A stretch of 42,992 nt of DNA from a virus (IMGVR_UViG_3300010430_000134:1-42992); one strand, 5' to 3'; shown: positions 4,769 to 40,361, numbered from the stretch's first letter. The notes: generated by a model not told the origin, from the sequence alone. A program made the numbers and translations.

Positions 4769-5254
4769 ATGGCCCGCGCAATCGAAACCGATCCCTACCA
4801 CAACTTCCGGTTCCAGCTCGTGGACCCGAACGGCGGCAACCTCGACCCTGTCGCCGGGTTCACCATGGTGTCCATGCCGGACCACACCCAGACGATCGCC
4901 GAGTATCGCGAGGGGACCGACAAGTACACCAAGAAGTTCCCGGGGGTCAACTCGGTCAGCGACATCACCTTCGAGAAGGGGATCTTCCGGCGCGACTCCG
5001 ACCTCTACGATTGGTTCCTCAAGACCGTCAACGGTGGCGAGGAGTATCGGACCGACCTGATCCTCAACGAGTTCCACATCGCGGACGAGTTCGGGATCAA
5101 CGGCAGCCCCAGCCGGGTCACCCGCCTCGAAGAGGTCTTGCCCAGCTCGGTCAAGCCGACCGCCGACAAGGACGCCACCAGCTCCGAGGTCGCCATCGCG
5201 TCCATGACGTGCGCGGTCGAGCGCTTCTTCCCGGTGCTCCTGCCCAACGCCTAG
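4769..5254 (+). CDS. Tail tube protein (T4 gp19-like)
   Basis: 161 residues, close to T4 gp19 (163). It polymerises into the inner tube through which DNA passes. The sequence follows the gp19 family pattern: an N-terminal DPYHNFRFQLV strand, a loop, IAEYREGTDKYTKKFPG (the conserved E-x-REG...K-x-PG element), SDITFEKGIFRRDSDLYDWF (strand and helix), and a C-terminal strand region. A GGAGG 6 nt before the ATG supports strong initiation. It directly follows the sheath, the usual order. A paralogue-like gene lies at 5657. Confidence 0.9.
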   Translation: MARAIETDPYHNFRFQLVDPNGGNLDPVAGFTMVSMPDHTQTIAEYREGTDKYTKKFPGVNSVSDITFEKGIFRRDSDLYDWFLKTVNGGEEYRTDLILNEFHIADEFGINGSPSRVTRLEEVLPSSVKPTADKDATSSEVAIASMTCAVERFFPVLLPNA

Positions 5255-5656: not shown

Positions 5657-6193
5657 ATGGCCCGCTCCTACCTTGTAGACCCGCTCCTCGCCTGCAACTT
5701 CGCGTTGATCGACGTGCCCGCAGTCGGGCTCGCCCCCCTCGCCTTCCCCTTCAAGCTGGCCAAGACCGCGCTCGCCAACGGCTCCTTCGTCGGCATGCAG
5801 TCGATCTCGGTTCCCGAGATGTCCGCCGAGACCAGGCAGATCAAAGAGGGGACTGCCGACTTCGTCCACACGGTCTACACCGGCTTCACGACCGGCGGCA
5901 CCGCGACCCTCACTCAAGCCGTCCTGGCCTCCAGCTTGGATATGTACCTCTGGTTCCTTCAGGGGATTCGCGGGCGCTTCGTGCCGCGCCGACACTTCAT
6001 CGTGGCTCACCTACGCCAGGACAAGTCGCTCCCCAGGCGGCTGGTGTTCCTCCAGAACTGCATCCCGATCTCCTGGAAGCCAGCCTCCGACTTCGACGCC
6101 ACCGCTGCCCAGGTCTCGCTGGAGTCGATCACGATGCAAGTGACCCACATCACCCCGATCCCGACCCAGTTCGACGATCTCTCGAAGGCTTGA
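5657..6193 (+). CDS. Second tail-tube-like protein (gp19-related)
   Basis: 178 residues. It shares the layout of the tube protein at 4769: an N-terminal LVDPLLACNFALI strand, then GMQSISVPEMSAETRQIKEGTADFVHTV (the E-x-R-x-x-x-EG tube motif), then a DMYLWFLQGI helix and C-terminal strands ending in VTHITPI. Identity with the first copy is low by eye. In phages with two such genes, one builds the tube shaft and the other is often an initiator or adaptor at the baseplate; which applies here is inference. The ATG is directly preceded by a possible -10 element and only a weak AGGG-like ribosome site. Confidence 0.75.
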   Translation: MARSYLVDPLLACNFALIDVPAVGLAPLAFPFKLAKTALANGSFVGMQSISVPEMSAETRQIKEGTADFVHTVYTGFTTGGTATLTQAVLASSLDMYLWFLQGIRGRFVPRRHFIVAHLRQDKSLPRRLVFLQNCIPISWKPASDFDATAAQVSLESITMQVTHITPIPTQFDDLSKA

Positions 6194-24126: not shown

Positions 24127-25224
24127 ATGGCGCACGTCTACGCAGATCGCGTCCGCGAGCAGTCCGCGACGGTGGGGATGGGCACCCTCGCACTCGCAGG
24201 AGCTGTCGCTGGCCACCAGACCTTCCTGAACGGGGTCGGTAACGCCAACACGACCTACTACTCGATCCTGGACGACACCACCAGCGAGTGGGAAGTCGGG
24301 CTCGGGACCGTCGGGGTCGGCACCCTCTCCAGGGACGCTGTGCTGGCCAGCTCGAACGCGAACGCACTCGTGAACTTGCAGCCTGGCACCAAGACGGTTG
24401 ACGCTGTCGCGGCCAGTGCCTTCTTCACAGGCGCGCTGACGAACGCCCTCCACAACGCCACCGATCACACGGGCATCATGGGCGTGCTCTCCGTCGAAGA
24501 CTTCGACACGGCGGACCACGACGGCACCGACCACACCAACGCACCCTGGAACCTGCTGGATTCGCCGACGCACGACGGGATCGACCATACCGCGCCGCCC
24601 TTTAGCTTGGTCTCGCAGGCAGCCCACGACCTCGCGCTTCACACTGGGCTCGGGCTCTACGACGCGGTTGCGCATGACGCGGTCGATCACACGGCCGGAC
24701 CGTTCAATCTGCTCGACCAAACGGCGCACGACGCGCTCGATCACTCGAACGTGCCGGGAATCACGCGCACCACTATCCACCAGAGCAATCCGGCGCATGT
24801 GCTTGGCGGCGGAGGCCCGGTCCCCTACAACCTCCTCATTCCTGCTGGCACCCTGACCGTGGACGGGGACGAGCTGCGCATCACCTATGTCCTTGAGATC
24901 CCAGGTGGCGGTTCGCACGTCCACAACGTCTCGTTCGGCGGGGCTGGGCTCATCTACGCCGTCACCATAGTCGGGTCCACCGTGCTAATGGAAGTGACGA
25001 TGCGGTTCGTTCGGACCGCTGCGGGCACTTCGATCTTCTACGGCCGCGACTCGGGGGAGGTCGGGACGGGGACAACCCCGACCGGGCTCGTTCCTCGTGG
25101 TACCCACAACATAGCGCTCGCAACGGCCTGGGGCGGACCGCTCACCTACTCCATGAACTCAGGCAGCTTCACGACTGTGATCCTTCGTGCGATCCGGGCC
25201 GAGAAGTTTGAGCAGGTTCCCTAA
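24127..25224 (+). CDS. Tail fibre protein with DHT repeats
   Basis: 365 residues. The N-terminal ~105 residues are a known phage fibre head: YADRVREQSATVGMGTLALAG, VGNANTTYYSIL, WEVGLGTV, TLSRDAVLASSNANALVNLQ and PGTKTVDAVA. Residues ~109-210 hold six units with DHT or HDxxDH cores (TDHTGIMGV, DHDGTDHTNAP, HDGIDHTAPP, AHDAVDHTAGP, AHDALDHSNVP). The last ~130 residues look like a beta-rich tip domain (TLTVDGDELRITYVLEI). The head domain usually fixes a fibre to the baseplate. It sits between the FDH-repeat protein and the collagen fibres. Confidence 0.75.
   Translation: MAHVYADRVREQSATVGMGTLALAGAVAGHQTFLNGVGNANTTYYSILDDTTSEWEVGLGTVGVGTLSRDAVLASSNANALVNLQPGTKTVDAVAASAFFTGALTNALHNATDHTGIMGVLSVEDFDTADHDGTDHTNAPWNLLDSPTHDGIDHTAPPFSLVSQAAHDLALHTGLGLYDAVAHDAVDHTAGPFNLLDQTAHDALDHSNVPGITRTTIHQSNPAHVLGGGGPVPYNLLIPAGTLTVDGDELRITYVLEIPGGGSHVHNVSFGGAGLIYAVTIVGSTVLMEVTMRFVRTAAGTSIFYGRDSGEVGTGTTPTGLVPRGTHNIALATAWGGPLTYSMNSGSFTTVILRAIRAEKFEQVP
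24463..24756 (+). repeat. In-gene imperfect repeat, DHT/HDxxDH units
   Basis: Six imperfect units of about 17-18 codons, residues ~113-210 of the fibre protein, each with a DH pair and often a following (A/G)PxxL. Similar HDxxDHTG units occur in fibre proteins of other phages. Confidence 0.65.
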
Positions 25225-25226
25225 GC

Positions 25227-27245
25227 ATGGCGATTTCAGGAGCCCCAATCAGTGGAGCCCCTATTGGAGGCTCCAGCCCGGCCGGGGGTGGAGGCGGCGG
25301 GCCCGTGTCGCCCCCCGAGCTGGCCCCCCTCGCGGCCTTCAACGATCTGGAGATCAAGTATCGCTACGGCGAGAGCTACATCGGCGAGGCGACGAACACC
25401 GCCTTCCTCGGCACCCCGCGCGGCGTCTACTTAGGGTTCGTCCCCACCCTGGAGAACTTCGTCCTCACGCTCTCCCCGGACCCGGACTACGGGGTCTCAG
25501 CGCTGCGCGCTACGTCCCTCCTGGACCCCCTTCGATCGGCGGACATCTTTTTCAAGGAGGACATCGTCCTCGACTTCACCGGTCACGTCGGCGGGTTTCC
25601 GATTTACGTCTACGCGGAGATCGACCAGGTGCTGGGGGCGGCCCCGAACGTAGCGCGGATCCTCACGGCAGGCGGGCTCCCCTCCGGCCCCACCCAGATT
25701 CTCATTTGCACCCTCCCCGATGCGGTCACCGTGTCCTTCGACGACCCGACCAACCGGGCAACCCCTTACGCCCACGCCAGCGCTCCGCTCGGCTTCGGGT
25801 TTATGAAGGACTCGGCGCTCCCCCAGCTCCTGGAGGCCCTCGACCTTGTCCTGGAGGTCCAGGCAGCTCGGGAAGACCTCACCGGCACCATTCAGCCGGA
25901 TCTCAGCTCCCGCCTCGCGGCCGACGGAGCTGGTCAGGCCATGGCCGACCGCCTCGCCAAGTCGATCCGCACGGTCCAGAGCCTCGACTTCGTCACCACG
26001 GGTGGTACCTCCGAGAACGTGTCCGAGTCCTTCGGCAACCGGGCCCGGATCGTGAACACGCTCGACCCCCAGTTGACCATCGCCCCGTTCGGCGGCGAGG
26101 AGCTGGTCGGCGCGATCTGCGACGGCACTCTGCCGGACGTCGTCCCCGCTGGTGCAGTCTCCGACGGTGACCGCAACGTCTGCGTCCTGGTCGATTCGAC
26201 GACCGGCGCTCGGATCATGGACGGCGTTGACCCTGTGTTCGCCCGCCTGATCTGCGACGAGGTCGTGCTCCCTCTTGCCTGGGGGCTGGATTTCACGATC
26301 GCCTCGACGACCGTGAACGGCACCACGACGGACTTCACCGACGGCACGGTCGTGGTCGGTGACATCATCGAAGACAACCTCAGCAACTTCTACCGGGTGG
26401 ACTCGATCGGCGGCGCGCTCGTCCTCGATCTGGACGTTTCCACCCCCGCCGTGGCTACGTCGTCTGCGAACGAGAAGCTGCGACGCCGGTTCACCCTGGA
26501 GTTCTTCAAGTCGGACGGGGTCGGAGGGGAACAGGCTGTGTCCCTGGCCGCCGCCCTGAACGTCCGCTTCTACTTCCCCCAGTGGCAGGACGACGGTACT
26601 GGGTTCTACGACGCCTGGCCCACCCTGCACCAGCACGGCGAGTCGGAGCCGGTCCCGGTCGCTACGGCGGCGATCGAAGGCCGGGCCCGCCTGGCTATCG
26701 ACACTGCGCTGGGCGGGGCGCTCTACAACGCCCAGGACAACTTCAGCCCAGTCTCCACCACGCGCAACTGGCACACGATCGACTGGATGAACGCTGGTGC
26801 AGCTCTGTCTCCGTCGCCCGGTGTCCTCGACGTGAACCAGCGCGGGCCGGACGGCGACCCGGGCCCCACTGGCGGAGGCCCCGGCTCTCCCCCTGCTCCT
26901 GGTCTCCAAGGTGATCCGGGGGTTGGGATCACGGAGCGGCAACTCTTCCTCAAGAGCCCTGACGCGGATCACCTAGCGCTCGGGCCGGGAGCGACTTACT
27001 CCTGGCAGGGTGGCGGCGGCTTCGGCGGGTCGAACTTCCTCGGGTTCACGAACGAGGTCATATTCGCGACGGGAGGGCTCGCAGCCTCCGAGCACAACGC
27101 TCCCCTGGTGGACCCCAACGATCACTTCATCATCGAAGACATCTCCTTCCTGGGGATCGACCAGGTCGAAATGGACATGCGCGTCCCGTCGGGCGGGTCT
27201 CCGGTGGGAATCTTCGCCTTCTTCATCAACGCGGGAGGTTACTGA
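25227..27245 (+). CDS. Collagen-like fibre protein A
   Basis: 672 residues. After a Gly/Pro/Ser-rich N-terminus (residues 1-35), a ~500-residue region is shared with the two next proteins: PRGVYLGFVP, IVLDFTGHVGGFPIYVY, RNVCVLVDSTTGARIMDG, RRRFTLEFF and NWHTIDW. Residues 540-567 are an interrupted collagen-like stretch (GPDGDPGPT, then GLQGDPGVG), followed by a ~105-residue tip (FLKSPDADHLALGPG... FFINAGGY). The layout of anchor, collagen rod and knob is that of a trimeric fibre. It is the first of three tandem paralogues and overlaps the next by 1 base. Confidence 0.75.
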   Translation: MAISGAPISGAPIGGSSPAGGGGGGPVSPPELAPLAAFNDLEIKYRYGESYIGEATNTAFLGTPRGVYLGFVPTLENFVLTLSPDPDYGVSALRATSLLDPLRSADIFFKEDIVLDFTGHVGGFPIYVYAEIDQVLGAAPNVARILTAGGLPSGPTQILICTLPDAVTVSFDDPTNRATPYAHASAPLGFGFMKDSALPQLLEALDLVLEVQAAREDLTGTIQPDLSSRLAADGAGQAMADRLAKSIRTVQSLDFVTTGGTSENVSESFGNRARIVNTLDPQLTIAPFGGEELVGAICDGTLPDVVPAGAVSDGDRNVCVLVDSTTGARIMDGVDPVFARLICDEVVLPLAWGLDFTIASTTVNGTTTDFTDGTVVVGDIIEDNLSNFYRVDSIGGALVLDLDVSTPAVATSSANEKLRRRFTLEFFKSDGVGGEQAVSLAAALNVRFYFPQWQDDGTGFYDAWPTLHQHGESEPVPVATAAIEGRARLAIDTALGGALYNAQDNFSPVSTTRNWHTIDWMNAGAALSPSPGVLDVNQRGPDGDPGPTGGGPGSPPAPGLQGDPGVGITERQLFLKSPDADHLALGPGATYSWQGGGGFGGSNFLGFTNEVIFATGGLAASEHNAPLVDPNDHFIIEDISFLGIDQVEMDMRVPSGGSPVGIFAFFINAGGY

Positions 27246-29113
27246 TGGCCCAATTCCCCGTTGAGGTTTTCACCCACGACCAAGCACTCCTTGGCCACAA
27301 CGACCGCTACAAGAGCGCTCTGCTCAACCGCAAGAACGCAGTCTGGCCCAAGGGCGTCTACATCGGGTTCGACCCCGTCGTCGCCGACCCGCTTATCACA
27401 CTCGACCCGGACGCCACCGAATCCATCTCGGTCATTCACGTCCCGTCCTCGGACGATGTGGGCGCGCTCACTATCGCCGTGGACCGGACGCTCACCTTGG
27501 ACTTCACCGGGGTGCTTCCCGGGGACTTCCCTGTCCACGTCTTGGCCCGCGCCACCTACACGGACGCCCCTGACACCCCGACCACGGCAGAGGTGTTCAC
27601 CAGGTCGGCGGGGGTTGTAGCGGCCGACGAGGTGCTGATCTGCGTCGTGGACGGGCCCGTCGGGTCGCTGACCGTGGACGTTACGCCGAGCCTCGCCCGC
27701 CAGACGCCCCTTGCCTTCGCGGACACCAGCTACGGGTTCATGCCCACCGGTTCGATCGAGGATCTCCAAGCTGCTGCTGACGCTGTCAACGAGGTGATCG
27801 CCTCCCGTCTTGGTCTTGACGGGGTTACTTACCCTTCGCTCAAGGAGCGGCTTGACGCGGACTACGGTGCCACGAACATGGCCACCCGCCTCGCGCGTGT
27901 GTTGCGCGTGATCCGTGGCAACAGCTTCACGATCCCGGCTGCTACGACGACTACGACGCTGATCGGCGGGTCGCTCTCGGAAGCGAACCGTGACTACCTG
28001 CCCGCCCGGACCTTCGACGGCCTCGGGTCTGAGACGGCGGACGGAGCTGTGGCCGGGCCCAATGACGCGCAGCGCAACGTGCTCCTCCTCGTCAACGCGC
28101 TGACCGGCAACAAGGCGGTCACGAACGACACGGACCGCACGATCGTGTTTGCGCGGTTGACCGGTCCGGTCATGACCTTGCTGACAGGGACGGTTGCCTA
28201 CCAGAACGCCCAGGTGGCCGTTTCTGGCTCCGGCACCCAGTTCACCGCCGAGCTGGTGGAAGGCGACCTGATCGAGGGCGTGGACGGCCTGTTCTACGAG
28301 ATCCAGACGATCGCCGACGACGAGACCATGACCCTGCGCAACGGCTACATCGGTGCCACGGCGCAATCGGATGGGAGATCGTCCCGCCGCTGGCAACTCG
28401 AACTCTTCACACTCTCGGGCGGGGTGGAAGTCACTGCTTCCTTCGACGCCGACACGACCGTGATCCCCTATCTCCCGGTGTTCGTCGATCGCTCCGTCTC
28501 CGTTGCAGATTGGGCGCTCCCGCACCACACGCCTGCTGAGCGTCCTCCCCTTCCCAGCGCTACGACCACCGACGCCGGGCGGGCGTTGCTCGGGACCACG
28601 GGCGCTCGTGTGGGGGCGGTGTTTATCCAGCACCTCGGGGCCCCAGTCGCTGGCTCCCCGTTCCACACGATCAACTTCGTGGACGGCAACGGCCAAGTGA
28701 TCGAAGACCCGCTCAACGCGGGCGAGCTGGACGTGGGCGAGATCGGGATTGCTGGGGCCGATGGCGGGCCGGGGCCCCAAGGCGGGCCAGGGCCGCCCGG
28801 CGACCCCGGACCCGGGTTCACCGAGAAGACCGCCTTCATCGCAGGCTCACTCGTTACCGTGACTGGCGGTGCCGGGTCTGTGGCCATCTCCTACTCGGAA
28901 GCTATGGGCCACACGGTGCGCTACGCTTCAGGGGGGTTCGCCAACATCCAGGCGGCGGCTGGCTCTTTCGGCTGGGTGTTTTCGACCGACTACGCAGAGA
29001 TCACAGGTATCACGATAGCGGGCAACCTGGTTCAGATCAGCGGCAACGTCACCTCGGGCGGTGGCGGCAACGGCGTGTCGGCTCAGGTGTTCGCCAGCTC
29101 AGCGGGGGACTAA
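27245..29113 (+). CDS. Collagen-like fibre protein B
   Basis: 622 residues; GGGAGG precedes the ATG in TGATG. Same body as its neighbours: PKGVYIGFDP, LTLDFTGVLPGDFPVHVL, RNVLLLVNALTGN, RRWQLELF and FHTINF. Residues 504-524 are seven uninterrupted Gly-X-Y triplets: GAD, GGP, GPQ, GGP, GPP, GDP, GPG. Four have Pro in the Y position, the position hydroxylated in collagens. A 98-residue tip follows (TEKTAFIAGSLVTV, VRYASGGFANIQ). It is the cleanest collagen rod of the set, and a prolyl-hydroxylase-like gene lies 2.6 kb downstream of its end. Confidence 0.8.
   Translation: MAQFPVEVFTHDQALLGHNDRYKSALLNRKNAVWPKGVYIGFDPVVADPLITLDPDATESISVIHVPSSDDVGALTIAVDRTLTLDFTGVLPGDFPVHVLARATYTDAPDTPTTAEVFTRSAGVVAADEVLICVVDGPVGSLTVDVTPSLARQTPLAFADTSYGFMPTGSIEDLQAAADAVNEVIASRLGLDGVTYPSLKERLDADYGATNMATRLARVLRVIRGNSFTIPAATTTTTLIGGSLSEANRDYLPARTFDGLGSETADGAVAGPNDAQRNVLLLVNALTGNKAVTNDTDRTIVFARLTGPVMTLLTGTVAYQNAQVAVSGSGTQFTAELVEGDLIEGVDGLFYEIQTIADDETMTLRNGYIGATAQSDGRSSRRWQLELFTLSGGVEVTASFDADTTVIPYLPVFVDRSVSVADWALPHHTPAERPPLPSATTTDAGRALLGTTGARVGAVFIQHLGAPVAGSPFHTINFVDGNGQVIEDPLNAGELDVGEIGIAGADGGPGPQGGPGPPGDPGPGFTEKTAFIAGSLVTVTGGAGSVAISYSEAMGHTVRYASGGFANIQAAAGSFGWVFSTDYAEITGITIAGNLVQISGNVTSGGGGNGVSAQVFASSAGD
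28754..28816 (+). repeat. Collagen-like Gly-X-Y segment, seven perfect triplets
   Basis: Codons 504-524 of fibre B encode seven Gly-X-Y triplets with Pro at position Y in four. Shorter, interrupted versions occur in fibre A (26844-26927) and fibre C (30629-30700). Confidence 0.8.
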
Positions 29114-31012
29114 ATGGCTACCTTCCCCTCGGTCACCCTCGCCAAAGAGTTCGTCAAGGTCCGGTTCCTAGAGCCGAACGCGGCGGAGGGGATCAACCAG
29201 CGTCACCTCCTGATGCCGCGCGGCGTCCTCCTCGGGTTCACTCCCTTCGTGAACCCGGCGGACCTCGTCCTCCAGCTCCTGCCGGACGTGTTCCAGAACT
29301 TCAGCATGTTGAAGTGCGGCTCGACGAGCGAGCGCATGCACATCGACATCTTCTCGGCGGACCCGATCCTCCTCGACTTCACGGGGCACGCGCAGTACCC
29401 CGTCTACGTCCTCGCGACCGCCGACTACCAGGATGGCAAGGCGACCAACGGACGGATCTTCACCCGCACTACGCCCCCGACGGGCGTCAACGAGATCATG
29501 CTTTGCCGAGTTCGACGGACCGGCGACGACCTCGAAGTGGACGTCGATGTTCCGACCTACCGGCAACCGCCAGTCGCTTTTACCGGCCAGCCTTACGGAT
29601 TCATGCCGGGCGGATCCGTAAGCGACCTGGCCTCCGTGGCGACCACCGTGGCCGAGATCGCGGCTGCGCGCGTGGATCTGACCACCACGCTCCAGCCCAC
29701 ACTCCAGGATCGCCTGGCCGCCGACATGGACGGCGCGGCCATGGCCTCTCGACTGGGGCTGATTCCGTCCCAGCTCCTCTCGAACATCTACACGGTGGAC
29801 TCGGCCGCGTCCCAGGTCAACGTGTCCGGCTCCTTCGCGGGCACCAGCCGTGTGTTCGCCCCCAACCTCACGACGATCGACGCGGGCGGCAACGAGACAG
29901 CCCCAGGCGTGGTCACCACTCCACCCCGCAATCTCTGCTACGTGGTGGACGCCGACACCGGCTTACGCCTGGTGGACACCGAGTCCCCCTCCGTTGAGGA
30001 GCCCACGCTCGATCCGGTGTTTGGCCGACTCACCTACAGCACGGGCGCGGTCACGGGCACGATCATCTTCACGAACGCCCAGACGGAGGTCACGTCGCCC
30101 AACAACGCCTTCGCCTCGCTTCAGGAAGGGGACATCGTCCTATCACATGCCTCTGACATCGACCCGGCCACGGGCCAGGTGCGGTGGTATGAGGTGCGAA
30201 CGATCAACTCGCCCACCAGCGCGGAGCTGGCGACGGAGTTCGAGGGCGGCGGCACCGGCGGGGCGCTCAGCGTGGTCAACACGACGTGGCGGCGGTTCCT
30301 GCTTGACCTGTTCTCTCCCGCAGGGGCCTTCTCTGTTCCGTCGGACACCCAGGTCCAGTTCACTTGCCCGGTCTTCTACGCCACCGACCAGGCTGTCTGG
30401 GACGGGGCCATGTATCTCAAGCGGGTAGGGGAGGCACCCCCCGTTCCCGACGCTGAGGTGAACCTCGCGGGCAAGATCACGCTCGTGCAGATCGGCTCGC
30501 TCGCTGGAGCGCTGCGGAACGCCAAGTCGAATGGGTCTCCAGTGGGGACCAACTTCCACACGATCAACTTCACCCAGCCAGGCACCGTCGTGCAGTCCAG
30601 CCCAGGGGTGGTCGATGTCCAAATCCCCGGGGCGGTCGGGCCCACCGGAGCCCCCGACGGAGCAGGGCCACCCGGAGTGGGAGGCATCAACGGGCCCGCC
30701 TACAGTACGTGCAACCCGTTCTCAGACGACACGCTGAAGGGCGGCGTGGCCACCGGGAACGTGGCTATCTCCTTTCAAGAGGACTTCAGCCTCTTGAGCC
30801 CCGCGATCAACACGGCGGTGCAAATGGCGAGTGGCGGGTTCAGCTACATGAGCATGCTCGCCCAGTTTGGGGGTAGTAACTGTCGAGCTGAAATCAACAA
30901 CATCCAGATTCAGACCCCAAACCTCACGAGTGCCCAGCTCGACGCCTTCTTGTCCCAGAACGGCGGCGCGAACACTTACGAGGTCAAGGTATTCTTGGGG
31001 GCTGCGGAGTAG
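29114..31012 (+). CDS. Collagen-like fibre protein C
   Basis: 632 residues; starts directly after the previous stop (TAA ATG). Shared body: PRGVLLGFTP, ILLDFTGHAQYPVYVLA, RNLCYVVDADTGLRLVD, RRFLLDLF, FHTINF and SSPGVVDVQ. Residues 506-529 are collagen-like with one break: GAV GPT GAP, then DGA, then GPP GVG GIN GPA. The 103-residue tip (STCNPFSDDTLKGG... YEVKVFLGAAE) differs from those of A and B and has two Cys residues. The three genes probably give alternative or hetero-trimeric fibres with different binding tips. Confidence 0.75.
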   Translation: MATFPSVTLAKEFVKVRFLEPNAAEGINQRHLLMPRGVLLGFTPFVNPADLVLQLLPDVFQNFSMLKCGSTSERMHIDIFSADPILLDFTGHAQYPVYVLATADYQDGKATNGRIFTRTTPPTGVNEIMLCRVRRTGDDLEVDVDVPTYRQPPVAFTGQPYGFMPGGSVSDLASVATTVAEIAAARVDLTTTLQPTLQDRLAADMDGAAMASRLGLIPSQLLSNIYTVDSAASQVNVSGSFAGTSRVFAPNLTTIDAGGNETAPGVVTTPPRNLCYVVDADTGLRLVDTESPSVEEPTLDPVFGRLTYSTGAVTGTIIFTNAQTEVTSPNNAFASLQEGDIVLSHASDIDPATGQVRWYEVRTINSPTSAELATEFEGGGTGGALSVVNTTWRRFLLDLFSPAGAFSVPSDTQVQFTCPVFYATDQAVWDGAMYLKRVGEAPPVPDAEVNLAGKITLVQIGSLAGALRNAKSNGSPVGTNFHTINFTQPGTVVQSSPGVVDVQIPGAVGPTGAPDGAGPPGVGGINGPAYSTCNPFSDDTLKGGVATGNVAISFQEDFSLLSPAINTAVQMASGGFSYMSMLAQFGGSNCRAEINNIQIQTPNLTSAQLDAFLSQNGGANTYEVKVFLGAAE

Positions 31013-31015
31013 GGC

Positions 31016-31675
31016 ATGAAGAACTGGTACGGCTATCAAGCGGACGGGAAAGTCGTGTCCATCGAAATGCACGGCTACGGCTGGGCGGACGACGCCGACT
31101 GGAACAATCCGCTCTGCCCCGCTGGCGGGGAGGACTGCGGCAACGACGAGTGCAAGTTCTGCCAGGGGACTGGGGTGGACAAGCGAGTCGCCACCCCTGC
31201 GCGGGCCCGACGCCTAGCGGATGGGATCATCGGCTGGGCCGCCTTCGACTGCCCATGTCCCGGCGAGCAGCGTGTGTGCGAGTGCCACAACAGCAAGATC
31301 GCCTTCTGGCACGTCAACCCGGAGACCAAGGAGTGGGTGGAGAAGCCGCAGTCCAGGATCTGGATTAACGGGGCAGAGCAGCCCGACGTGCTGCGCCTTG
31401 AGGATCGCCAGCTCCGTAGCATCGACGTGCCCTACAGCTCCACGATCAAGTTCAAGATCGTAGGCCCGGACATCCCCGACGGCGGGAAGATCGAGGTGGG
31501 GACCAGTGGCCTTGACCAGCTCTACGAGGAGGTGAGCTGGGAGATGGAGGTCACCGGCGGGACGACCGCGGAGATCGACCTGACCGCTCCACAGATCGGG
31601 GCTGTGTCCATGCTCACGATCCACGGCAAGTGGGCTCGCCCGCAGGCCCTCGTCATTCGAGGCGTGCTCCCTTGA
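31016..31675 (+). CDS. Cys-rich protein with DnaJ-type CxxCxGxG motif
   Basis: 219 residues. Eight cysteines lie in two clusters: C34, C41, C46, C49 with CKFCQGTG (the CxxCxGxG zinc-finger motif of DnaJ), and C79, C81, C88, C90 (CPCPGEQRVCECH). The C-terminal ~110 residues are beta-rich (RIWINGAEQPD, TIKFKIVGPDIPDGG, EMEVTGG) and look like a structural or Ig-type domain. It lies between fibre C and the oxygenase, so a zinc-bound chaperone for fibre folding or a small virion part are both possible. The known DnaJ finger binds unfolded substrate; the J domain is absent here. Function is inferred. Confidence 0.65.
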   Translation: MKNWYGYQADGKVVSIEMHGYGWADDADWNNPLCPAGGEDCGNDECKFCQGTGVDKRVATPARARRLADGIIGWAAFDCPCPGEQRVCECHNSKIAFWHVNPETKEWVEKPQSRIWINGAEQPDVLRLEDRQLRSIDVPYSSTIKFKIVGPDIPDGGKIEVGTSGLDQLYEEVSWEMEVTGGTTAEIDLTAPQIGAVSMLTIHGKWARPQALVIRGVLP

Positions 31676-32289
31676 GCGAGGTGATCGTCCTTGGCGCGCT
31701 TCCGAGCCAGGTCGAGTGCGAGCAGTTCCACGACGACGTGTTCCTCTACCGGGCGGTTGTTCCCTGGGGCCAGGATCTAATCGACGAGGCGGAGCGGGCT
31801 CTGCTCTGGAACCGGTCCAGCCAGGTCAACGCCTACGGCAAGTCGTCGTTCAAGACCGAGAACCGCTCCTCGTGCAGCACCATGATCTCGAAGTCGGCGT
31901 GCTCCATCTGGTGGCCCTTCGAGCAGCAGCTCCTCACGGCCTTCCACTCCTGCATCAGAGACTACGTCGGCCGTAACTCCTTCCTCCAGGTCAACAAGAC
32001 GTCGCCCTTCGAGTTGCTGCGCTACAAGCCCGGCCAGCGCTTCGGGCACCACATCGACGCGGTCGCGGGCCGACATGAGGGTCTCCGCCAACTTTCCTGC
32101 CTGCTGTTCGTGAACGACGAATATGAGGGAGGAGAGCTTGACCTTCCTCGCCAATCCCTGAGAATCAAAGGCCGAGCTGGGGACATCCTTTTGTTCCCCA
32201 GCAACTTCTGCTTCCCGCACGCCAGCCTGCCTGTCTTGTCGGGGACCAAGTACGCGGTCGTCTCCTGGGCGGTCGCACTGGCGGGATAG
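31672..32289 (+). CDS. 2-oxoglutarate/Fe(II) oxygenase, prolyl-4-hydroxylase-like
   Basis: 205 residues from a TTG start in TTGA, coupled to the previous stop; GTG at 31681 is the alternative. The double-stranded beta-helix core shows LLRYKPGQRFGHHIDA, RQLSCLLFVNDEYEGGELDL, IKGRAGDILLFPS and GTKYAVVSW. The iron triad is H127-x-D129 and H183; K193, exactly ten residues after H183, would bind 2-oxoglutarate as in collagen prolyl-4-hydroxylases. The family uses O2 and 2-oxoglutarate to hydroxylate prolines. It follows three collagen-like fibres, which are natural candidate substrates. Other substrates (host protein, nucleic acid) are not excluded. Fold and active site are confident; substrate is inference. 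Confidence 0.9.
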   Translation: MSEVIVLGALPSQVECEQFHDDVFLYRAVVPWGQDLIDEAERALLWNRSSQVNAYGKSSFKTENRSSCSTMISKSACSIWWPFEQQLLTAFHSCIRDYVGRNSFLQVNKTSPFELLRYKPGQRFGHHIDAVAGRHEGLRQLSCLLFVNDEYEGGELDLPRQSLRIKGRAGDILLFPSNFCFPHASLPVLSGTKYAVVSWAVALAG

Positions 32290-32298
32290 GAGACCCAC

Positions 32299-32607
32299 AT
32301 GGTGAAGCGCATGTTCTGCGCAGTTTTGGTCGTGGCCCTCTCGGGCTGCTGCGTGGCGACGAACGAGGACTACCTCGACGAGGTCCACAAGCACCTCGTG
32401 GAGAACGTCCGGCCCAACTACGCGGAGGCGCTCCAAGAGGCGCGCACCCCCGACGGGAAGCCGCTCTACCTGGAGGTCTACAAAGACACCCAGCTCGGGG
32501 TCGTGGACCAAATGATCTTCGGGATCGACCGCGTCATGGAGCGGGAGCAGGCCGTGCTGGAGCCCGCGCCCTGGGCTCCTGCGACCCCCGCTGGCGGTGA
32601 CGAATGA
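32299..32607 (+). CDS. Predicted lipoprotein
   Basis: 102 residues. MVKRMFCAVLVVA is a short signal peptide and L14-S15-G16-C17 a lipobox, so the mature protein (86 residues) would be lipid-anchored at C17. The mature part is helical and acidic (NEDYLDEVHKHLVENV). GGAG precedes the ATG. Phage lipoproteins include outer spanins and superinfection-exclusion proteins; there is no typical inner spanin partner next to it, so neither is certain. It overlaps the next start by 4 bases. The lipobox favours an outer-membrane host, though Gram-positive lipoproteins also exist. Confidence 0.7.
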   Translation: MVKRMFCAVLVVALSGCCVATNEDYLDEVHKHLVENVRPNYAEALQEARTPDGKPLYLEVYKDTQLGVVDQMIFGIDRVMEREQAVLEPAPWAPATPAGGDE

Positions 32608-33083
32608 GCACCGACGAGATGCTCGCCAAGGCCAAGGAGATCGCGGAGCCGAAGCTGAAGGAGATCGCGGCCGACCTCCAGGCTCGCTTCAAGCAGCGGT
32701 TCACCGAGTTCCTCGACAAGACGAAGCTCGACCAGGTTGACGATCTGCTCAAGCAGGCCGGTGAGCTTCGGCTCAAGGCGGTCATGACGTCGGACGCTCA
32801 CGAGGCCATGCAGTACGCGCGCTCCTCGGACGCCGTGCTCCGTCAGCTCAGCCTGATGGCCAAGGCCGAAGAGGTCGTGGCGGCCCGTGCGATCGGCAAG
32901 ATGCTCAAGCAAGCGGCCACCGCGCTCTGGGACGGCTTCCAGACCGTGGCCACCGAGCTGCTGGGCGTTCTCGTCCAGGGGCTGATCTCAGGCGCTCTCG
33001 GGAGCCTGAGCGGTGGTGGAGGAGTCGGAGGTGCGCTCGCCGACGCAGCGGGCGGGTTTCTTGGCGGCGGCGACAACGACTGA
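32604..33083 (+). CDS. Small protein with amphipathic N-terminus and Gly-rich hydrophobic C-terminus
   Basis: 159 residues, ATGA overlap with the lipoprotein gene. Residues 1-60 are charged helices (MLAKAKEIAEPKLKEIAADL), the middle is helical, and residues ~115-155 are hydrophobic and Gly-rich (ATELLGVLVQGLISGALGSL, SGGGGVGGALADAAGGFLGGG), ending acidic. A membrane-active or holin-like role would fit the C-terminus and the neighbouring lipoprotein, but the sequence does not settle it. No family recognised. Confidence 0.6.
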   Translation: MSTDEMLAKAKEIAEPKLKEIAADLQARFKQRFTEFLDKTKLDQVDDLLKQAGELRLKAVMTSDAHEAMQYARSSDAVLRQLSLMAKAEEVVAARAIGKMLKQAATALWDGFQTVATELLGVLVQGLISGALGSLSGGGGVGGALADAAGGFLGGGDND

Positions 33084-34947: not shown

Positions 34948-35112
34948 GTGTCGGCACTCGTCAAACCACTGGTCCAATCTGGGACCACAGGGGCACGCCC
35001 CCTGGGGGTGGTTGACGGTACGTGCTACTTCGATGTGACCCTCGGCAAGCCCCTGTGGGCGCTCTCCAGTTCTTCGACTGGATGGGTTGATGCTGTTGGG
35101 ACAGACTCATGA
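34948..35112 (+). CDS. 54-residue protein, GTG start
   Basis: 54 residues: it starts MSALVKPLVQSGTT, continues RPLGVVDGTCYFD, TLGKPLWALSS and ends WVDAVGTDS. The RPxGxVxGxxYFDxxLGKPxWxxxxxWVDAxG pattern is a widespread very small module in phage structural regions. GGGAGG 6-11 bases before the GTG, and a 4-base ATGA overlap with the next gene, make it real despite its length. Probably a fibre or head-decoration accessory. Confidence 0.7.
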   Translation: MSALVKPLVQSGTTGARPLGVVDGTCYFDVTLGKPLWALSSSSTGWVDAVGTDS

Positions 35113-35696
35113 GCTTCCTCTTTAAGCCTGGAGCTGGCGGCGGTGGTGGGATCGCGGGGACGGCCGTAGACCCGGTCTCCCCCGGTGGCGTGCTGATCGA
35201 CCCCCTTACCGAGCTGACGCAGCCGGGCGGGCCGCTCCCTGCCGGGACGGCGATTATCGCCGACGGCCTCGGCGGCTACATCTTCGGCTCTCCGGCGGGC
35301 GCAGACGTTCGCTTCGCGGTCCAGTTCCACCACGACGCAGGCGTGCCTTCCTTCGGCACGCGCTACCTGCGCTACGGCGAGGGCGTTCACACCAGCCAGG
35401 CCGGTTTCCGCATGACGGCGGACGGCCAGCTCCGTGGAATCACCGTCCAGGTGAACACCACCAGCACGAACGACTACGACATCGAGATCCTCCGAGATCC
35501 CGCAGGCCGCGCGGGCGGGCCCTTCGTGCTTGGCACCTTGGCGCTCCCGGCTGGGTCGCTGTTCGCGGTTGATCGGTCCCTCGCGGTCGCGGTGACCACG
35601 GCCATGGAGATCGGTGCGCGCGTCGTGCGCTCCTCCGGCTCCGGCGTCTCCAGCTTCACCGCCCTTGTGGTCAAGACCGAGTGGTCGATCCCATGA
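35109..35696 (+). CDS. Fibre tip-like protein
   Basis: 195 residues, ATGA start. A Gly/Pro-rich N-terminus (KPGAGGGGGIAG) leads to PLPAGTAIIADGLGGYIFGSP, then a ~115-residue domain with RYLRYGEGVHTSQAGFRMT, LRGITVQVNTTSTNDYDIEIL and ALPAGSLFAVDRSLAV, resembling the beta-sandwich knobs at the end of phage fibres. It overlaps both neighbours by 4 bases. Likely a small head or tail fibre component; inference from fold pattern. Confidence 0.65.
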   Translation: MSFLFKPGAGGGGGIAGTAVDPVSPGGVLIDPLTELTQPGGPLPAGTAIIADGLGGYIFGSPAGADVRFAVQFHHDAGVPSFGTRYLRYGEGVHTSQAGFRMTADGQLRGITVQVNTTSTNDYDIEILRDPAGRAGGPFVLGTLALPAGSLFAVDRSLAVAVTTAMEIGARVVRSSGSGVSSFTALVVKTEWSIP

Positions 35697-36373
35697 GCCA
35701 CGCGACTCTTTCACTGACATCGAACTTGGGGACCGGCGCGGCGGTCCTCGTCGCCGATCTGGGCGTGTTGATTCCATCCGCTGGTGGATCCGAGACCTTC
35801 TCGCTGACCAACGACATCGAGGCGGTTCGGACCTCAGCGGACGTGCGCGCCCTGACCACAGACGGGGCCTACCCGGGTGCGCCCGATCCTTCGGCCCACA
35901 CCCTGATCCTCAAGGACGCGAACGGCAACATCGTCCCGCCCGACGAGATCGACTTCTTCCTCGCCCCGCCCAGCACGGCCGAGACTACCCTCGTGGTCAG
36001 GAGTTACGTCGGCGGCGTGACCGCCAACGACGTCGTCTACCAGACGAGCCCCGACACCGTAGACCGAGCTGACGCCTCGGCCGTCGCGACCAGCGCGGCT
36101 GTGATCGGCATGGTGGATACCCTCGACGAGCCGTCCGTCGGCAAGTGCCTGGTCCGGTTCAACGGCGACCTGGCCGGGTTCACCGGACTCGTCGCAGGCG
36201 AGATTTATCTCCTCTCGACCACTCCTGGGGGAATCGTTGGAGAGACGGATACTGGGAACGTAAACTACCCGGACACAACTCCTGGAAGTGGTGAGGTAAC
36301 GCGCGAGGTTGGTGTCGCTGTCAACTCCACAACCCTGTTCGTAGATACGCAACGGGATTTTGAACAGAACTAA
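35693..36373 (+). CDS. Structural protein with fibre/decoration C-terminal domain
   Basis: 226 residues from the ATG overlapping the previous stop; an earlier in-frame start at 35681 lies inside that gene. The N-terminal half is polar strands. The C-terminal ~115 residues (GMVDTLDEPSVGKCLVRFNG, FTGLVAGEIYLLSTTPGGIVG, REVGVAVNSTTLFVD) match a module repeated across phage fibre and decoration proteins, also present in looser form at the end of the next protein. Probably virion, perhaps attached to the fibre encoded next. Confidence 0.65.
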   Translation: MSHATLSLTSNLGTGAAVLVADLGVLIPSAGGSETFSLTNDIEAVRTSADVRALTTDGAYPGAPDPSAHTLILKDANGNIVPPDEIDFFLAPPSTAETTLVVRSYVGGVTANDVVYQTSPDTVDRADASAVATSAAVIGMVDTLDEPSVGKCLVRFNGDLAGFTGLVAGEIYLLSTTPGGIVGETDTGNVNYPDTTPGSGEVTREVGVAVNSTTLFVDTQRDFEQN

Positions 36374-36398
36374 GCAAGGGCGGGGAGGCACCTAACCC

Positions 36399-38549
36399 AT
36401 GGCCGCAGTCACAATGCTCAGGCGTGTCGCCGGTAAGGCGCACACCACTTCGTTCGTGGAGGGCACCGACGACGCAGTCGTCGATTCGCTCATCACGGTC
36501 GGAGTCACCACCGCTGACGTCTACAACGACGCCAACACACTCATCGTCAACGTCGGTGGATCCGCGCTCACCACGGCGAACATCGCCACCGGCGCGTCGG
36601 TCACCGGCGTCAACATCGGCACCGGCATGGGGTCGGGCGACACGATCAACGTCGGCGGCACGGGTTCGCAGACCGTAGTCGGCGGTGACCTGGTCGTGAA
36701 TGGCACGACCACCACCGTCCACTCCGAAGTTGTGAACATTCGCGACAACCACCTCTACCTGAACGCCGACTACACGACGGCGGTCGCCCAGACTGGCGGA
36801 CTGGTCGTCAACTACCTGCCGACGGCCACGGCCGACACCGAAGCTGCTGGTGGCTTCACGTCCACCACCACGGTCGCCACCACCGGCGCTGCGGTCTTCG
36901 CGGCGGGCGACTTCATTCAGGTTAGCGGGGCCGCCAACCAGGCGAACGACGGCATCTACGAGGTGCTCACCCACGCCGCGAACGTCCTGACGATCGACTC
37001 GACCCCGGTCCACTCGTTCTCGCAGACCGCCTTCACGGTGGACGCGACCGGGTCCACGGCGGCCTTCACCCAGGTCACGGTCTCCGCGATCCAGGCGGGC
37101 ACGGACGGGATCTGGGAGACGGGCGCTGGCTCGACCGCTGCTGGCCTGACCTTCACCGATCTCGCGACCGGTGGTGGTAACAGCCTCCAGGCGGCCTACG
37201 TCACGGGCAACGCGATCACCATGACCGACGCCGAAGGCGACTTCGACATCTCGGTCACCTCGGGCACCCCGGCGATCAGCCTGGATGCGGCGGGCGCGTC
37301 GAACTTCACGGTCGCGGGCGCTGGGCTGACCCTCAGCACGACGACCTCCGGCACCGTCCTGATCGACAGCGCGGGGCTCTTGGACATGAACGCCGCAGCG
37401 TCCATGGACATCGACGTGACCGGCACCTACGACATGCTCTCGACCGGGGCCTTCTCGATCGACGGCACCGGTGCCTCGAACGTCACCGCCACCTCCGGCA
37501 GCATGACGGTCTCGACGCTCACCACGGGTGACGTGATTCTTGACTCGGTGGACTCGGTCAGCATCGACGGCGCTGAGGCGGCGGCTGACGCGGTCTCGAT
37601 CCAGGCCAGCAACGCCGCTGGTGGTATCGACGTGGACGCTGGGACCGCCGGTATCGCGGTGGACACCACGGGTGGCCTGAGTCTGGACTCGGCGGCCGAC
37701 TCCAACTTGACCGCCGCCAACACAACTGCCTCGACCAATATCACGCAGACGATCACGGTCGATAACACTGGGGCGACTGCGGGCGACGCGACGCTGGACA
37801 TCAACGCCACGAGCACCAACGGCTCCGGCGTGATCGACATGGACGCCGACGACACGATCACCATTGACACTCTCGCCAGTGGAACGATCAGCGTCGGCGC
37901 GGACGCTGTGGACGGGTCGCTGAACTTTGGCACGGGGGCGGCCGTCAAGACGGTCACCGTCGGCTCGCTGACCACGACTTCGGCCACCACGGTTCAGTCT
38001 GGCGCGACTGGCGACATTACGCTCGACGCGCGTGGCATGACCACGCCGATCACCCTGAACCAGACGGGTGACCTGGACCTGGACGGCGGGTTCACCGCCA
38101 CCTCGATCATCGGCGCGCTCAACGAGCTGCTCTCGGCCACTTCGGCTGGTGCGGGCCAGGTTGTGGTGGATTCGATCACCACCGGCCTGACGGTTGGTGC
38201 TCCGGTCTACCTGACCACGACCGCCGACACCTACGCGCACTGCGACGCCGACGCGGCAGGCACGTCAGACTGGGTTGGCTTCGTCAAGACGGTCGGCGGG
38301 CTCGGCACCGGCGAAGTCGTCATGGCGGGCAAGACCGACGCGGCCTTCGAGGTTGGCCTCACGATCACCGTGGGCGACGCTCTGTTCCTCTCGACCGTGA
38401 CGGGTCGCGTCACCAACGTGGCCCCGTCTGGGGTCGGTGACACGGTCTACGAGCTTGGCTACTGCAACGAGGTGCAGGCCGGTGGCTCGACGACTGACGG
38501 TGAGGCCCTTGAGGTCGTGATCGCCCACAGCGCGCGGTCGGTCCTCTAG
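36399..38549 (+). CDS. Long beta-helical tail fibre protein
   Basis: 716 residues; GGGGAGG precedes the ATG. N-terminal VTMLRRVAGKAHTTS is shared with the protein at 39687 and is probably an attachment segment. Residues ~95-130 contain VVGGDLVVNGTTTTVHSEV and IRDNHLYLNAD, the GDLxVxGTTTTV block of T4-like long fibres. A Ser/Thr/Ala/Asp-rich region of short strands (about 260-570) looks like a repetitive beta-rod. The C-terminus has IIGALNELLSATSAG then VGAPVYLTTTADTY and VGDALFLSTVTGRV, two copies of a fibre module. A terminator-like hairpin follows. Confident as a fibre; its receptor is unknown. Confidence 0.8.
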   Translation: MAAVTMLRRVAGKAHTTSFVEGTDDAVVDSLITVGVTTADVYNDANTLIVNVGGSALTTANIATGASVTGVNIGTGMGSGDTINVGGTGSQTVVGGDLVVNGTTTTVHSEVVNIRDNHLYLNADYTTAVAQTGGLVVNYLPTATADTEAAGGFTSTTTVATTGAAVFAAGDFIQVSGAANQANDGIYEVLTHAANVLTIDSTPVHSFSQTAFTVDATGSTAAFTQVTVSAIQAGTDGIWETGAGSTAAGLTFTDLATGGGNSLQAAYVTGNAITMTDAEGDFDISVTSGTPAISLDAAGASNFTVAGAGLTLSTTTSGTVLIDSAGLLDMNAAASMDIDVTGTYDMLSTGAFSIDGTGASNVTATSGSMTVSTLTTGDVILDSVDSVSIDGAEAAADAVSIQASNAAGGIDVDAGTAGIAVDTTGGLSLDSAADSNLTAANTTASTNITQTITVDNTGATAGDATLDINATSTNGSGVIDMDADDTITIDTLASGTISVGADAVDGSLNFGTGAAVKTVTVGSLTTTSATTVQSGATGDITLDARGMTTPITLNQTGDLDLDGGFTATSIIGALNELLSATSAGAGQVVVDSITTGLTVGAPVYLTTTADTYAHCDADAAGTSDWVGFVKTVGGLGTGEVVMAGKTDAAFEVGLTITVGDALFLSTVTGRVTNVAPSGVGDTVYELGYCNEVQAGGSTTDGEALEVVIAHSARSVL

Positions 38550-38599: not shown

Positions 38600-39196
38600 A
38601 TGGCGATCTCAGTCGAAGGTTTTGGTGCAGACTGGATCGTGACGCGAAAGCCTGGGGGAGTCCCCGAGCTGACGACGTTTCGATCTCCAGAGGAACTGCA
38701 AGCGCTGGTAAAGCGGTTGCTCGGGGAGGCAGACGAGCAGGAGATTCAGCGTGAGACCCCTCGTCCAACTCCCCCGCCAACCACTTCTCGCCTGGGGCGT
38801 CGCCTCCCACGGAAGACGGCGTCCCCAGTCGCAGCTCCAGCTCCTCCGCCCGCAGCTCCGGTCCCCGACCTCGACTGCACCCGCTGCGGAGCGTGCTGCG
38901 CTCCCCCCGATCCACAGGCCACGTTCCACGTCCGCATCGACGAAGACGACGTGCGGTCGCTCCCTCCTGCGCAGCAGCACCACCTGATCGTGAAGCACAA
39001 GGGATTGACTTACTTGGGGACCAAGAAGACCAGCCAGGGAACGACGGTATGCCGCGCCTACAAGGGGCAGATCGGTCACCAGGGCACTTGTATGATCTAC
39101 GACCACCGTCCCACGGTGTGCCGCGTATTCGAGCCGGGTGCCACGGAGTGCCTGTCTGCGCGGAAGAGGTTTGGGGCGGACGGAGGAGCCACGTAG
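38600..39196 (+). CDS. CxxCxxCC metal-cluster protein (YkgJ family)
   Basis: 198 residues; no clear ribosome site. Residues 53-89 are a Pro/Ala-rich linker. The C-terminal domain has C93-x2-C96-x2-C99-C100 (CTRCGACC), then VCRAYKG, CMIYDHRPTVCRVFE and ATECLSARKRFG, which is the YkgJ/UPF0153 pattern thought to chelate zinc or iron. FliB, the flagellin lysine methylase, belongs to a CxxCxxCC-containing group, so protein modification is one possibility (inference). The N-terminal ~50 residues are unrelated and acidic. Sited after a terminator, between fibre genes. Confidence 0.8.
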   Translation: MAISVEGFGADWIVTRKPGGVPELTTFRSPEELQALVKRLLGEADEQEIQRETPRPTPPPTTSRLGRRLPRKTASPVAAPAPPPAAPVPDLDCTRCGACCAPPDPQATFHVRIDEDDVRSLPPAQQHHLIVKHKGLTYLGTKKTSQGTTVCRAYKGQIGHQGTCMIYDHRPTVCRVFEPGATECLSARKRFGADGGAT

Positions 39197-39686: not shown

Positions 39687-40361
39687 GTGGCGACCGTCAC
39701 CATCCTCAAACGCGAAGCCAGCAAGGCGCATACGAAGTCGGTCGATCCGTCGGCCGATACGATTGCCGTTGCGGGAGTCGTGGGCAACGATGATGGTGCG
39801 GGGATCGTCGTAGGAGCCGCTGGCACAGGGGCTTCCACCGGTTCGGCGCTCGAAGCTGCCGCCTTCACCGCCACCGAGCTGGGCTATCTGACTCCCGCCA
39901 ACGGGATGATGGCCTACAACTCCACGGACGCCGAGATTCAGGGCTACTTCGGCGCGGCCTGGAACCCGTGGCTGCTCAACGAGGACGTGGACCTCGACGA
40001 GCAGACAGCTACCGGAACTTCCACGATCACTCGCACGCTGGCGACCTACGCGGTCGTCACGGGCATGACGATCACCCCGGGCGCGGGGACTTGGCTGGCG
40101 ATCTTTAGCACCGCCGCGAAGGTGAACAAGAACTCCCGCACTGCGCTGTTCTCCGTCTTCTCCAATGGGGTTCAGGTGCAGAGCAGCGAACGCGAAATTG
40201 GCGGTCAGGCCAACAACATGGGCAGCGTTTGCTCCACGGCCGTGGTGACCGTGACGGCGGGTCAGGCGATTGACGCACGCTGGCGGTTGGACGCAACGAC
40301 CTCGTCCCCCACGGTGACCGCGATGGAGCGGACGCTCATTCTCGTGAAGGTCGGCCCCTAA
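39687..40361 (+). CDS. Fibre protein sharing the N-terminal anchor of 36399
   Basis: 224 residues; GTG start. It begins VTILKREASKAHTKS, identical at 12 of 18 positions with the start of the long fibre at 36399. NGMMAYNSTDAEIQGYFGAAWNPW is a common fibre linker that precedes a tip domain. The C-terminal ~125 residues are beta-rich (TYAVVTGMTITPGAGTWLAI, RTALFSVFSNGVQVQSSERE) and resemble C1q/TNF-like knobs. A second, short fibre attached at the same place as the long one is the simplest reading. The next gene starts on its last base. Confidence 0.75.
   Translation: MATVTILKREASKAHTKSVDPSADTIAVAGVVGNDDGAGIVVGAAGTGASTGSALEAAAFTATELGYLTPANGMMAYNSTDAEIQGYFGAAWNPWLLNEDVDLDEQTATGTSTITRTLATYAVVTGMTITPGAGTWLAIFSTAAKVNKNSRTALFSVFSNGVQVQSSEREIGGQANNMGSVCSTAVVTVTAGQAIDARWRLDATTSSPTVTAMERTLILVKVGP

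Follow-up and report, generated by a model that had tools for sequence, protein, structure and literature searches.

The window, a whole virus record of 42,992 bases from IMG/VR (IMGVR_UViG_3300010430_000134:1-42992), carries three tandem tail-fibre genes with collagen-like Gly-X-Y segments (fibres A, B and C), followed shortly by a gene for a 2-oxoglutarate (2OG)-Fe(II) oxygenase that resembles prolyl 4-hydroxylases (P4Hs). We lean towards the reading that this phage modifies its own fibres with a prolyl-hydroxylase-like enzyme. It is supported here by the genes themselves, by a conserved glycine register, by a predicted P4H-type fold with intact ligands, by the linkage of fibres and oxygenase throughout the lineage of the window and by the recurrence of that linkage elsewhere. 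At the level of gene association, the link between substrate and enzyme is well supported for phages in general, and it is conserved in the window lineage.

The three fibres are mutually paralogous (phmmer E 1e-42 to 1e-62), A and C being 33-35% identical to B. Fibre B matches the tail-fibre family phrog_2712 (E 5e-11) and, on this similarity and the surrounding baseplate and tail genes, qualifies as a phage tail fibre; A and C follow by paralogy. The initial annotation of this region described Gly-X-Y stretches in all three genes and seven perfect triplets in fibre B, four of them with proline at position Y. The tandem paralogy, the perfect run in B and its four Y-position prolines are borne out, but the run counts nine triplets (residues 498-524), a length reached in 0 of 2000 shuffles. 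In A and C the stretches are interrupted and the longest perfect run is four triplets each (shuffle P 0.13 for A and 0.04 for C), which is near chance and unconvincing if taken alone. A collagen-like element that is uninterrupted, above chance and conserved for glycine at every third residue is thus recognizable, as far as sequence can tell, in fibre B only. The AlphaFold monomer of fibre B has a mean predicted local distance difference test (pLDDT) score of 31 and supports no structural claim on the fibres.

Four related virus contigs (L577-L580) were found when an alignment of the three paralogs was searched against the viral_contigs collection, and together with the window they make up the lineage considered here. 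No relatives were found with fibre B alone as query in viral_contigs, with fibre C in phages, or with the fibre alignment in GTDB genomes. Orthologs of fibre B in L577-L580 are 42-46% identical over their full length and those of fibre A 40-42%. All four contigs share the order fibre A, fibre B, 24127-type protein, fibre C, 31016 protein (g31016), oxygenase, so that the arrangement fibA-fibB-fibC-g31016-oxygenase is kept in 5/5 lineage members at about 44% fibre identity. Each of the five records contains exactly one PF13640 gene. Paralogs of the 24127-type protein lie before fibre A in L577, L578 and L580, and between fibres B and C in 4/4 relatives.

The repeats themselves are also conserved within the lineage. 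The fibre A ortholog has nine triplets in three of the four relatives (L577, L578 and L580) and the fibre B ortholog eight in all four; the fibre A and C stretches of the window read as degraded versions of their relatives' stretches. In the alignment of fibre B from the five phages, the register glycine is invariant at 8/8 positions, compared with 1/8 X positions and 2/8 Y positions, and outside the register 24/62 glycines are invariant (P 0.001 against 8/8). Since the glycine register is invariant while X and Y drift, selection acts on the stretch as a collagen-like element. Close to its C-terminal end, three X-Pro-Gly sites in a row are kept in 5, 4 and 4 of the five phages.

The oxygenase begins 659 bp after the end of fibre C, in agreement with the distance of less than 700 bases given initially. 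Its TTG start at 31672 overlaps the stop of the preceding gene, 31016-31675 (TTGA), and aligns with the GTG/ATG starts of the four relatives; numbered from this start, the proposed residues H127-x-D129, H183 and K193 are correct. The protein matches PF13640 with 57.8 bits against a curated cut-off of 27 (E 2e-15) and phrog_61 with E 6e-30. Its H-x-D...H triad, set in a predicted double-stranded beta-helix, places it in the PF13640 superfamily. The spacing had been called exactly that of prolyl 4-hydroxylases; the H-x-D motif and a lysine at distal His+10 are indeed present, but neither feature is unique to P4Hs. Position 193 is Arg in the other 54 aligned marine relatives, and K193 was rejected as a diagnostic P4H residue, as most phage relatives carry Arg and PHD-type and other families are also basic there. 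With Lys in the lineage and Arg in other phage relatives, residue 193 does not decide function.

The AlphaFold model of the oxygenase, built with 19 natural sequences, has a mean pLDDT of 86.6. Its best Foldseek matches in the PDB are Chlamydomonas P4H (2jig, 3e-11) and then the viral collagen prolyl hydroxylase of PBCV-1 (5c5t, 4e-11), followed by PHD2 and by Pseudomonas and Bacillus P4Hs, and every one of the 50 best-ranked matches is a P4H or PHD enzyme (E 3e-11 to 2e-8). A profile of the window family places Bacillus anthracis P4H at the top of its PDB matches (2.6e-14), with a PKHD enzyme, PHD2, prolyl 3-hydroxylase 1 and collagen lysyl hydroxylases lower down. Assignment as a PKHD-type hydroxylase (PiuC/YbiX) was discarded, the best score being 50.2 bits against an NCBIfam equivalog cut-off of 143. 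The enzyme thus looks like a P4H-type protein hydroxylase, for which prolyl 4-hydroxylation itself is a prediction. The oxygenases of L577-L580 have an acidic C-terminal tail of about 60-80 residues, which the window enzyme lacks.

The co-occurrence of such oxygenases with collagen-like genes, for which the initial annotation had proposed a survey, was examined in virus records selected for a tandem array of five Gly-X-Pro, Gly-Pro-X or Gly-X-Thr codon patterns, verified as open frames and searched over their full length for PF13640; in the Gly-Pro-X set, Y-position proline was below 10%. PF13640 genes were found in 25/159 Pro-rich collagen-like records (13/89 Gly-X-Pro and 12/70 Gly-Pro-X), in 2/82 Gly-X-Thr records (P 0.001, Pro-rich against Thr-rich) and in 0/100 high-GC non-collagen (Ala-X-Arg) control records. 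The Gly-X-Thr control, a closer match in GC content and length, was added because the Ala-X-Arg control was not fully GC-matched. Of the 13 Gly-X-Pro records with PF13640, seven have the oxygenase immediately next to the fibre, on the same strand and 4-76 bp away, and a combined test of fibre-oxygenase distance gave P 2e-5. Gly-X-Pro fibres accompanied by an oxygenase have more triplets than the others, with a median of 71 vs 13 (P 2e-4); the fraction of their proline at Y, Y/(X+Y), does not differ between fibres with and without the enzyme (P 0.63). Specificity for Y-position proline, which the original proposal had implied, was therefore dropped, Gly-Pro-X fibres with almost no Y-position proline being as strongly associated as Gly-X-Pro fibres.

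Within two genes of collagen-like fibres, the commonest enzyme is the oxygenase (13 loci). The next commonest is a family-2 glycosyltransferase-like protein of about 407 amino acids, found within two genes of 12 collagen-like fibres, of which seven are Thr-rich, five Gly-Pro-X and none Gly-X-Pro. That the glycosyltransferase favours Thr-rich fibres suggests that which enzyme stands beside a fibre depends on the residue that the fibre offers for modification.

The fibre-oxygenase layout of the window was also encountered in an eighth Gly-X-Pro record, G089 (L354+L355), from an unrelated phage with a circular genome of 38,090 bp that a 127-bp terminal repeat closes. There, a PF13640 oxygenase comes after three tandem collagen-like fibres and overlaps the last of them by 4 bp; the cluster lies at 34952-38532 and crosses the end of the record. 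No homologs of the other window proteins were detectable in G089; the layout of the window has therefore been acquired or retained on two occasions. With a profile of fibre-adjacent oxygenases, 80 loci were recovered. A collagen-like gene is present at 56 of them, in every case on the same strand and with a median gap of 408 bp, and 54 of these 56 genes are Pro-rich; having been chosen from fibre-adjacent founders, this set shows conserved linkage and not an independent rate. The fibres beside the best-populated oxygenase clade are of the Gly-Pro-Thr type (X 56% Pro, Y 59% Thr). The collagen-adjacent oxygenases form three or more separate groups in the tree, where the window lineage is a fully supported clade of its own. 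It is evenly poised, in our judgement, whether a self-contained unit for collagen maturation, made up of collagen-like tail fibres and a dedicated prolyl-hydroxylase-type enzyme, has been put together repeatedly by tailed phages, in three oxygenase lineages or more; the window lineage would be a conserved member with short triple-helical joints.

Two further arrangements were observed among oxygenases near collagen-like genes. In L161 (6456-7663) and L198 (3220-4400), a single collagen-like gene has two tandem oxygenases next to it, each from a different clade, which suggests a division of labour, for example between X and Y sites or between two residues. In Synechococcus virus S-PRM1 (L661, MH629685; 3639-12480), an 1824-amino-acid protein with 59 uninterrupted Gly-X-Y triplets, whose Y positions are 39% Lys and 37% Thr, is followed by one small gene and then by three tandem 2OG oxygenases; S-PRM1 is a cultured phage, grown on Synechococcus WH7803, and offers a ready experimental system.

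Several observations weigh against the modification of the fibres by this enzyme. Conserved synteny alone is no proof of substrate, and enzymes with the P4H fold can act on other proteins, for example on EF-Tu (4iw3 and 5v7y among the fold matches). With 9, 4 and 4 triplets, the Gly-X-Y segments of the window are short, and two of them are broken by interruptions; most phages in which an oxygenase co-occurs have tens to hundreds of triplets. The non-collagen control was richer in GC (median 60% vs 54%), so that habitat confounds this comparison, and the association does not separate X-position from Y-position proline. The nearest relatives of the oxygenase outside the lineage mostly sit with other oxygenases and away from collagen-like genes, a Pro-rich Gly-X-Y run of six or more being present in only 1/80 nearest database loci, and annotated cyanophage relatives can lie between uvsX and gp41. 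The oxygenase family as a whole is not tied to collagen.

The pairing of substrate and enzyme put forward initially thus stands in part: oxygenases are over-represented with Pro-rich collagen-like genes, often adjoin them on the same strand, do so in several oxygenase lineages and in 5/5 members of the window lineage, but the pairing is not exclusive. Judged by the refutation that the initial annotation itself had set, exclusivity is largely contradicted for the whole family by nearest relatives that mostly lack Gly-X-Y genes and by cyanophage members in replication operons. The opposite conclusion, no collagen link at all, was implied by the first relatives recovered (L002-L081) and was overturned by the reverse survey from collagen-like genes. 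Those relatives, mostly AT-rich marine phages, share a conserved module of a 228-249-amino-acid protein, the oxygenase and a second 2OG-like protein (for example L012, 8639-10370), often at the end of the structural operon. In RefSeq cyanophage records such as NC_048049, NC_070962 and NC_015287, several proteins that match 2OG oxygenases are labelled 'ferrochelatase', as is phrog_3531; the label looks like a propagated misannotation.

The main rivals concern another substrate, either within the cluster or in the host. The enzyme could hydroxylate another virion protein of the cluster (the products of 31016-31675 or 24127-25224, or a non-collagen part of the fibres), with the Gly-X-Y segments as incidental trimerisation linkers. 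In the lineage, the gene directly before the oxygenase is always 31016, L051/L052 have a relative of the 24127 protein near an oxygenase but no Pro-rich Gly-X-Y, and many marine oxygenases follow fibre genes that have no collagen repeats; such a substrate would nevertheless leave unexplained the excess of PF13640 beside Pro-rich, and rarely Thr-rich, collagen-like genes in phages without detectable homologs of these window proteins, such as G089, and we regard it as unlikely, though to be taken seriously. Slightly more doubtful is a host-directed or metabolic role, whereby the enzyme would hydroxylate a host protein such as EF-Tu, or be an auxiliary metabolic gene drawing on 2-oxoglutarate, and would owe its place in the late cluster to chance or expression timing. 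Its fixed slot after fibre C in 5/5 members, its single copy per record and the recurrent direct adjacency of oxygenases to collagen-like fibres elsewhere argue against this, whereas the presence among the fold matches of Pseudomonas and Bacillus P4Hs that bind EF-Tu or act on it, the PKHD-type profiles that also match the oxygenase, and the many 2OG oxygenases that cyanophages carry in replication and metabolic contexts, with metabolic roles proposed (PMC3037559, PMC9602691), speak in its favour.

Hydroxylation of a collagen-like substrate on a residue other than proline, such as lysine or threonine, possibly to anchor glycosylation, is improbable here: although a mimivirus-type procollagen lysyl hydroxylase (6ax6) matches the family profile (5e-6) and the lysine-rich repeat of S-PRM1 has three tandem oxygenases nearby, there is almost no Lys in the Gly-X-Y segments of the window lineage, and Pro-poor, Thr-rich phage collagens rarely have the enzyme. 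Least probable, and already disfavoured, is the absence of any functional link, with GC-rich, low-complexity linkers beside an unrelated moron gene. The GC content of 65% in the record and the near-chance runs of fibres A and C, which composition alone could give, fit that explanation; the invariance of the glycine register in five phages while X and Y vary, the retention of linkage at about 44% fibre identity and its independent recurrence elsewhere do not.

If the phage does modify its own fibres, the three fibre subunits and the P4H-like oxygenase would probably be co-produced late in infection. The oxygenase would act on unfolded chains, before trimerisation, and would hydroxylate prolines, and not lysine or some other residue, within the short Gly-X-Y segments or close to them, with exposed X-Pro-Gly or Gly-Pro-X as candidate sites. 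Action on either X or Y proline would be reasonable because B. anthracis P4H hydroxylates both, according to PMC8968730. The chains would then trimerise with a modified short triple-helical joint, and hydroxylation may strengthen or adjust this small joint, and so change its stability, ahead of the C-terminal domains. Phage virions would, on this mechanism, contain hydroxyproline made by phage enzymes.

Features of the fibre-oxygenase cluster in the window (positions counted from the first base of the record)
Feature	Positions	Strand	Basis
Structural/fibre-like gene, repeated H-D-x-x-D-H-T motifs	24127..25224	+	Open reading frame upstream of the fibres; homologs in L577, L578, L579, L580
Fibre A, 672 aa	25227..27245	+	Open reading frame; paralog of B and C
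Fibre A interrupted collagen-like segment GPDGDPGPTGGGPGSPPAPGLQGDPGVG	26844..26927	+	Sequence; orthologs in L577, L578, L580 have nine uninterrupted triplets
Fibre B, 622 aa	27245..29113	+	Open reading frame; residues 314-378 match tail-fibre PHROGs
Fibre B collagen-like segment GEIGIAGADGGPGPQGGPGPPGDPGPG, residues 498-524	28736..28816	+	Nine perfect Gly-X-Y triplets, 4 Y-Pro, 3 X-Pro
Fibre C, 632 aa	29114..31012	+	Open reading frame; paralog of A and B
Fibre C interrupted collagen-like segment GAVGPTGAPDGAGPPGVGGINGPA	30629..30700	+	Sequence; its last four glycines do not vary among the five phages
219-aa Cys-containing protein between fibre C and oxygenase	31016..31675	+	Homologs (E 1e-16 to 1e-18) in the same slot in L577-L580
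2OG-Fe(II) oxygenase, 205 aa, prolyl-4-hydroxylase-like	31672..32289	+	PF13640, phrog_61, predicted fold
Codons of H127-x-D129, Fe ligands	32050..32058	+	His and Asp invariant in 55/55 aligned sequences and in A4
Codon of H183, distal Fe ligand	32218..32220	+	Invariant in 55/55 aligned sequences
Codon of K193 (= H183+10), expected 2OG C5-carboxylate ligand	32248..32250	+	Lys in 5/5 lineage phages
Conserved downstream gene of the cluster	32604..33083	+	Homologs (E 1e-31 to 1e-34) after the oxygenase in L577-L579

The record encodes a contractile-tail phage, with genes for a baseplate wedge, a T4-type baseplate protein, a base-V/OB spike protein, a P2-I tail protein and a contractile-system tube protein. 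The 31016-31675 protein had no match in Pfam or PHROG searches. Elsewhere in the same phage, a paralogous gene pair (4769-5254 and 5657-6193, E 3e-13) lies near the start of the tail region, 38600-39196 encodes a protein with a CxxCxxCC putative zinc/iron-chelating domain (PF03692, E 7e-8), and 40361-42550 encodes a 729-amino-acid right-handed beta-helix protein (PF13229) with tail-fibre PHROG matches, probably a tail spike.

Collagen stabilised by hydroxyproline is textbook eukaryotic biology. A main paper on phage collagen states that bacteria and viruses lack the needed prolyl hydroxylases (PMC3368898), and a survey of Baltic Sea viruses, in which viral P4HA genes were abundant and which refers to tail-fibre collagen, says that their use 'remains cryptic' (PMC9301287). 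A search of the open literature, with subscription literature and preprints outside its scope, found no paper joining phage tail fibres and a prolyl hydroxylase. The recurring pairing of fibre and oxygenase gives the orphan viral P4HA genes a concrete, testable role, and small soluble phage enzymes of this kind might be used to hydroxylate recombinant collagen in bacteria.

The collagen-like fibres of Escherichia coli O157 prophages (PMC3368898) likewise have Gly-X-Y segments in phage tail-fibre proteins but no enzyme alongside, whereas the cyanophage 2OG-Fe(II) oxygenases (T4-GC 104/240/412/611; PMC3037559, PMC9602691) belong to the same PF13640/phrog_61 superfamily, widespread in phages, but are below 40% identity, have been read as metabolic or DNA-repair genes and in several cases lie beside uvsX/gp41 without collagen. 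B. anthracis P4H (3itq, 5hv0), which heads the PDB matches of the window-family profile, hydroxylates both X and Y prolines of collagen-like peptides and prefers Y (Schnicker and Dey 2016, cited after PMC8968730), but it is a cellular enzyme, also linked to EF-Tu (5v7y), and stands outside any fibre operon. The mimivirus collagen lysyl hydroxylase/glycosyltransferase (PMC9546862; 6ax6) provides the precedent of a virus encoding both collagen-like proteins and a collagen-modifying 2OG oxygenase; it differs in its host, a giant virus of amoebae being concerned, in its lysine target and in its two-domain build, the window enzyme being a single short domain. The prolyl 4-hydroxylase of PBCV-1 (vCPH, 5c5t; Eriksson et al. 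1999, as cited in PMC9301287) is, like the window enzyme, a viral 2OG oxygenase of the P4H fold, but it comes from a eukaryotic (Chlorella) virus, shares about 19% identity and has not been described as the partner of tandem tail fibres in the late cluster of a phage. Viral collagen hydroxylases are thus already known from giant viruses (PBCV-1 and mimivirus).

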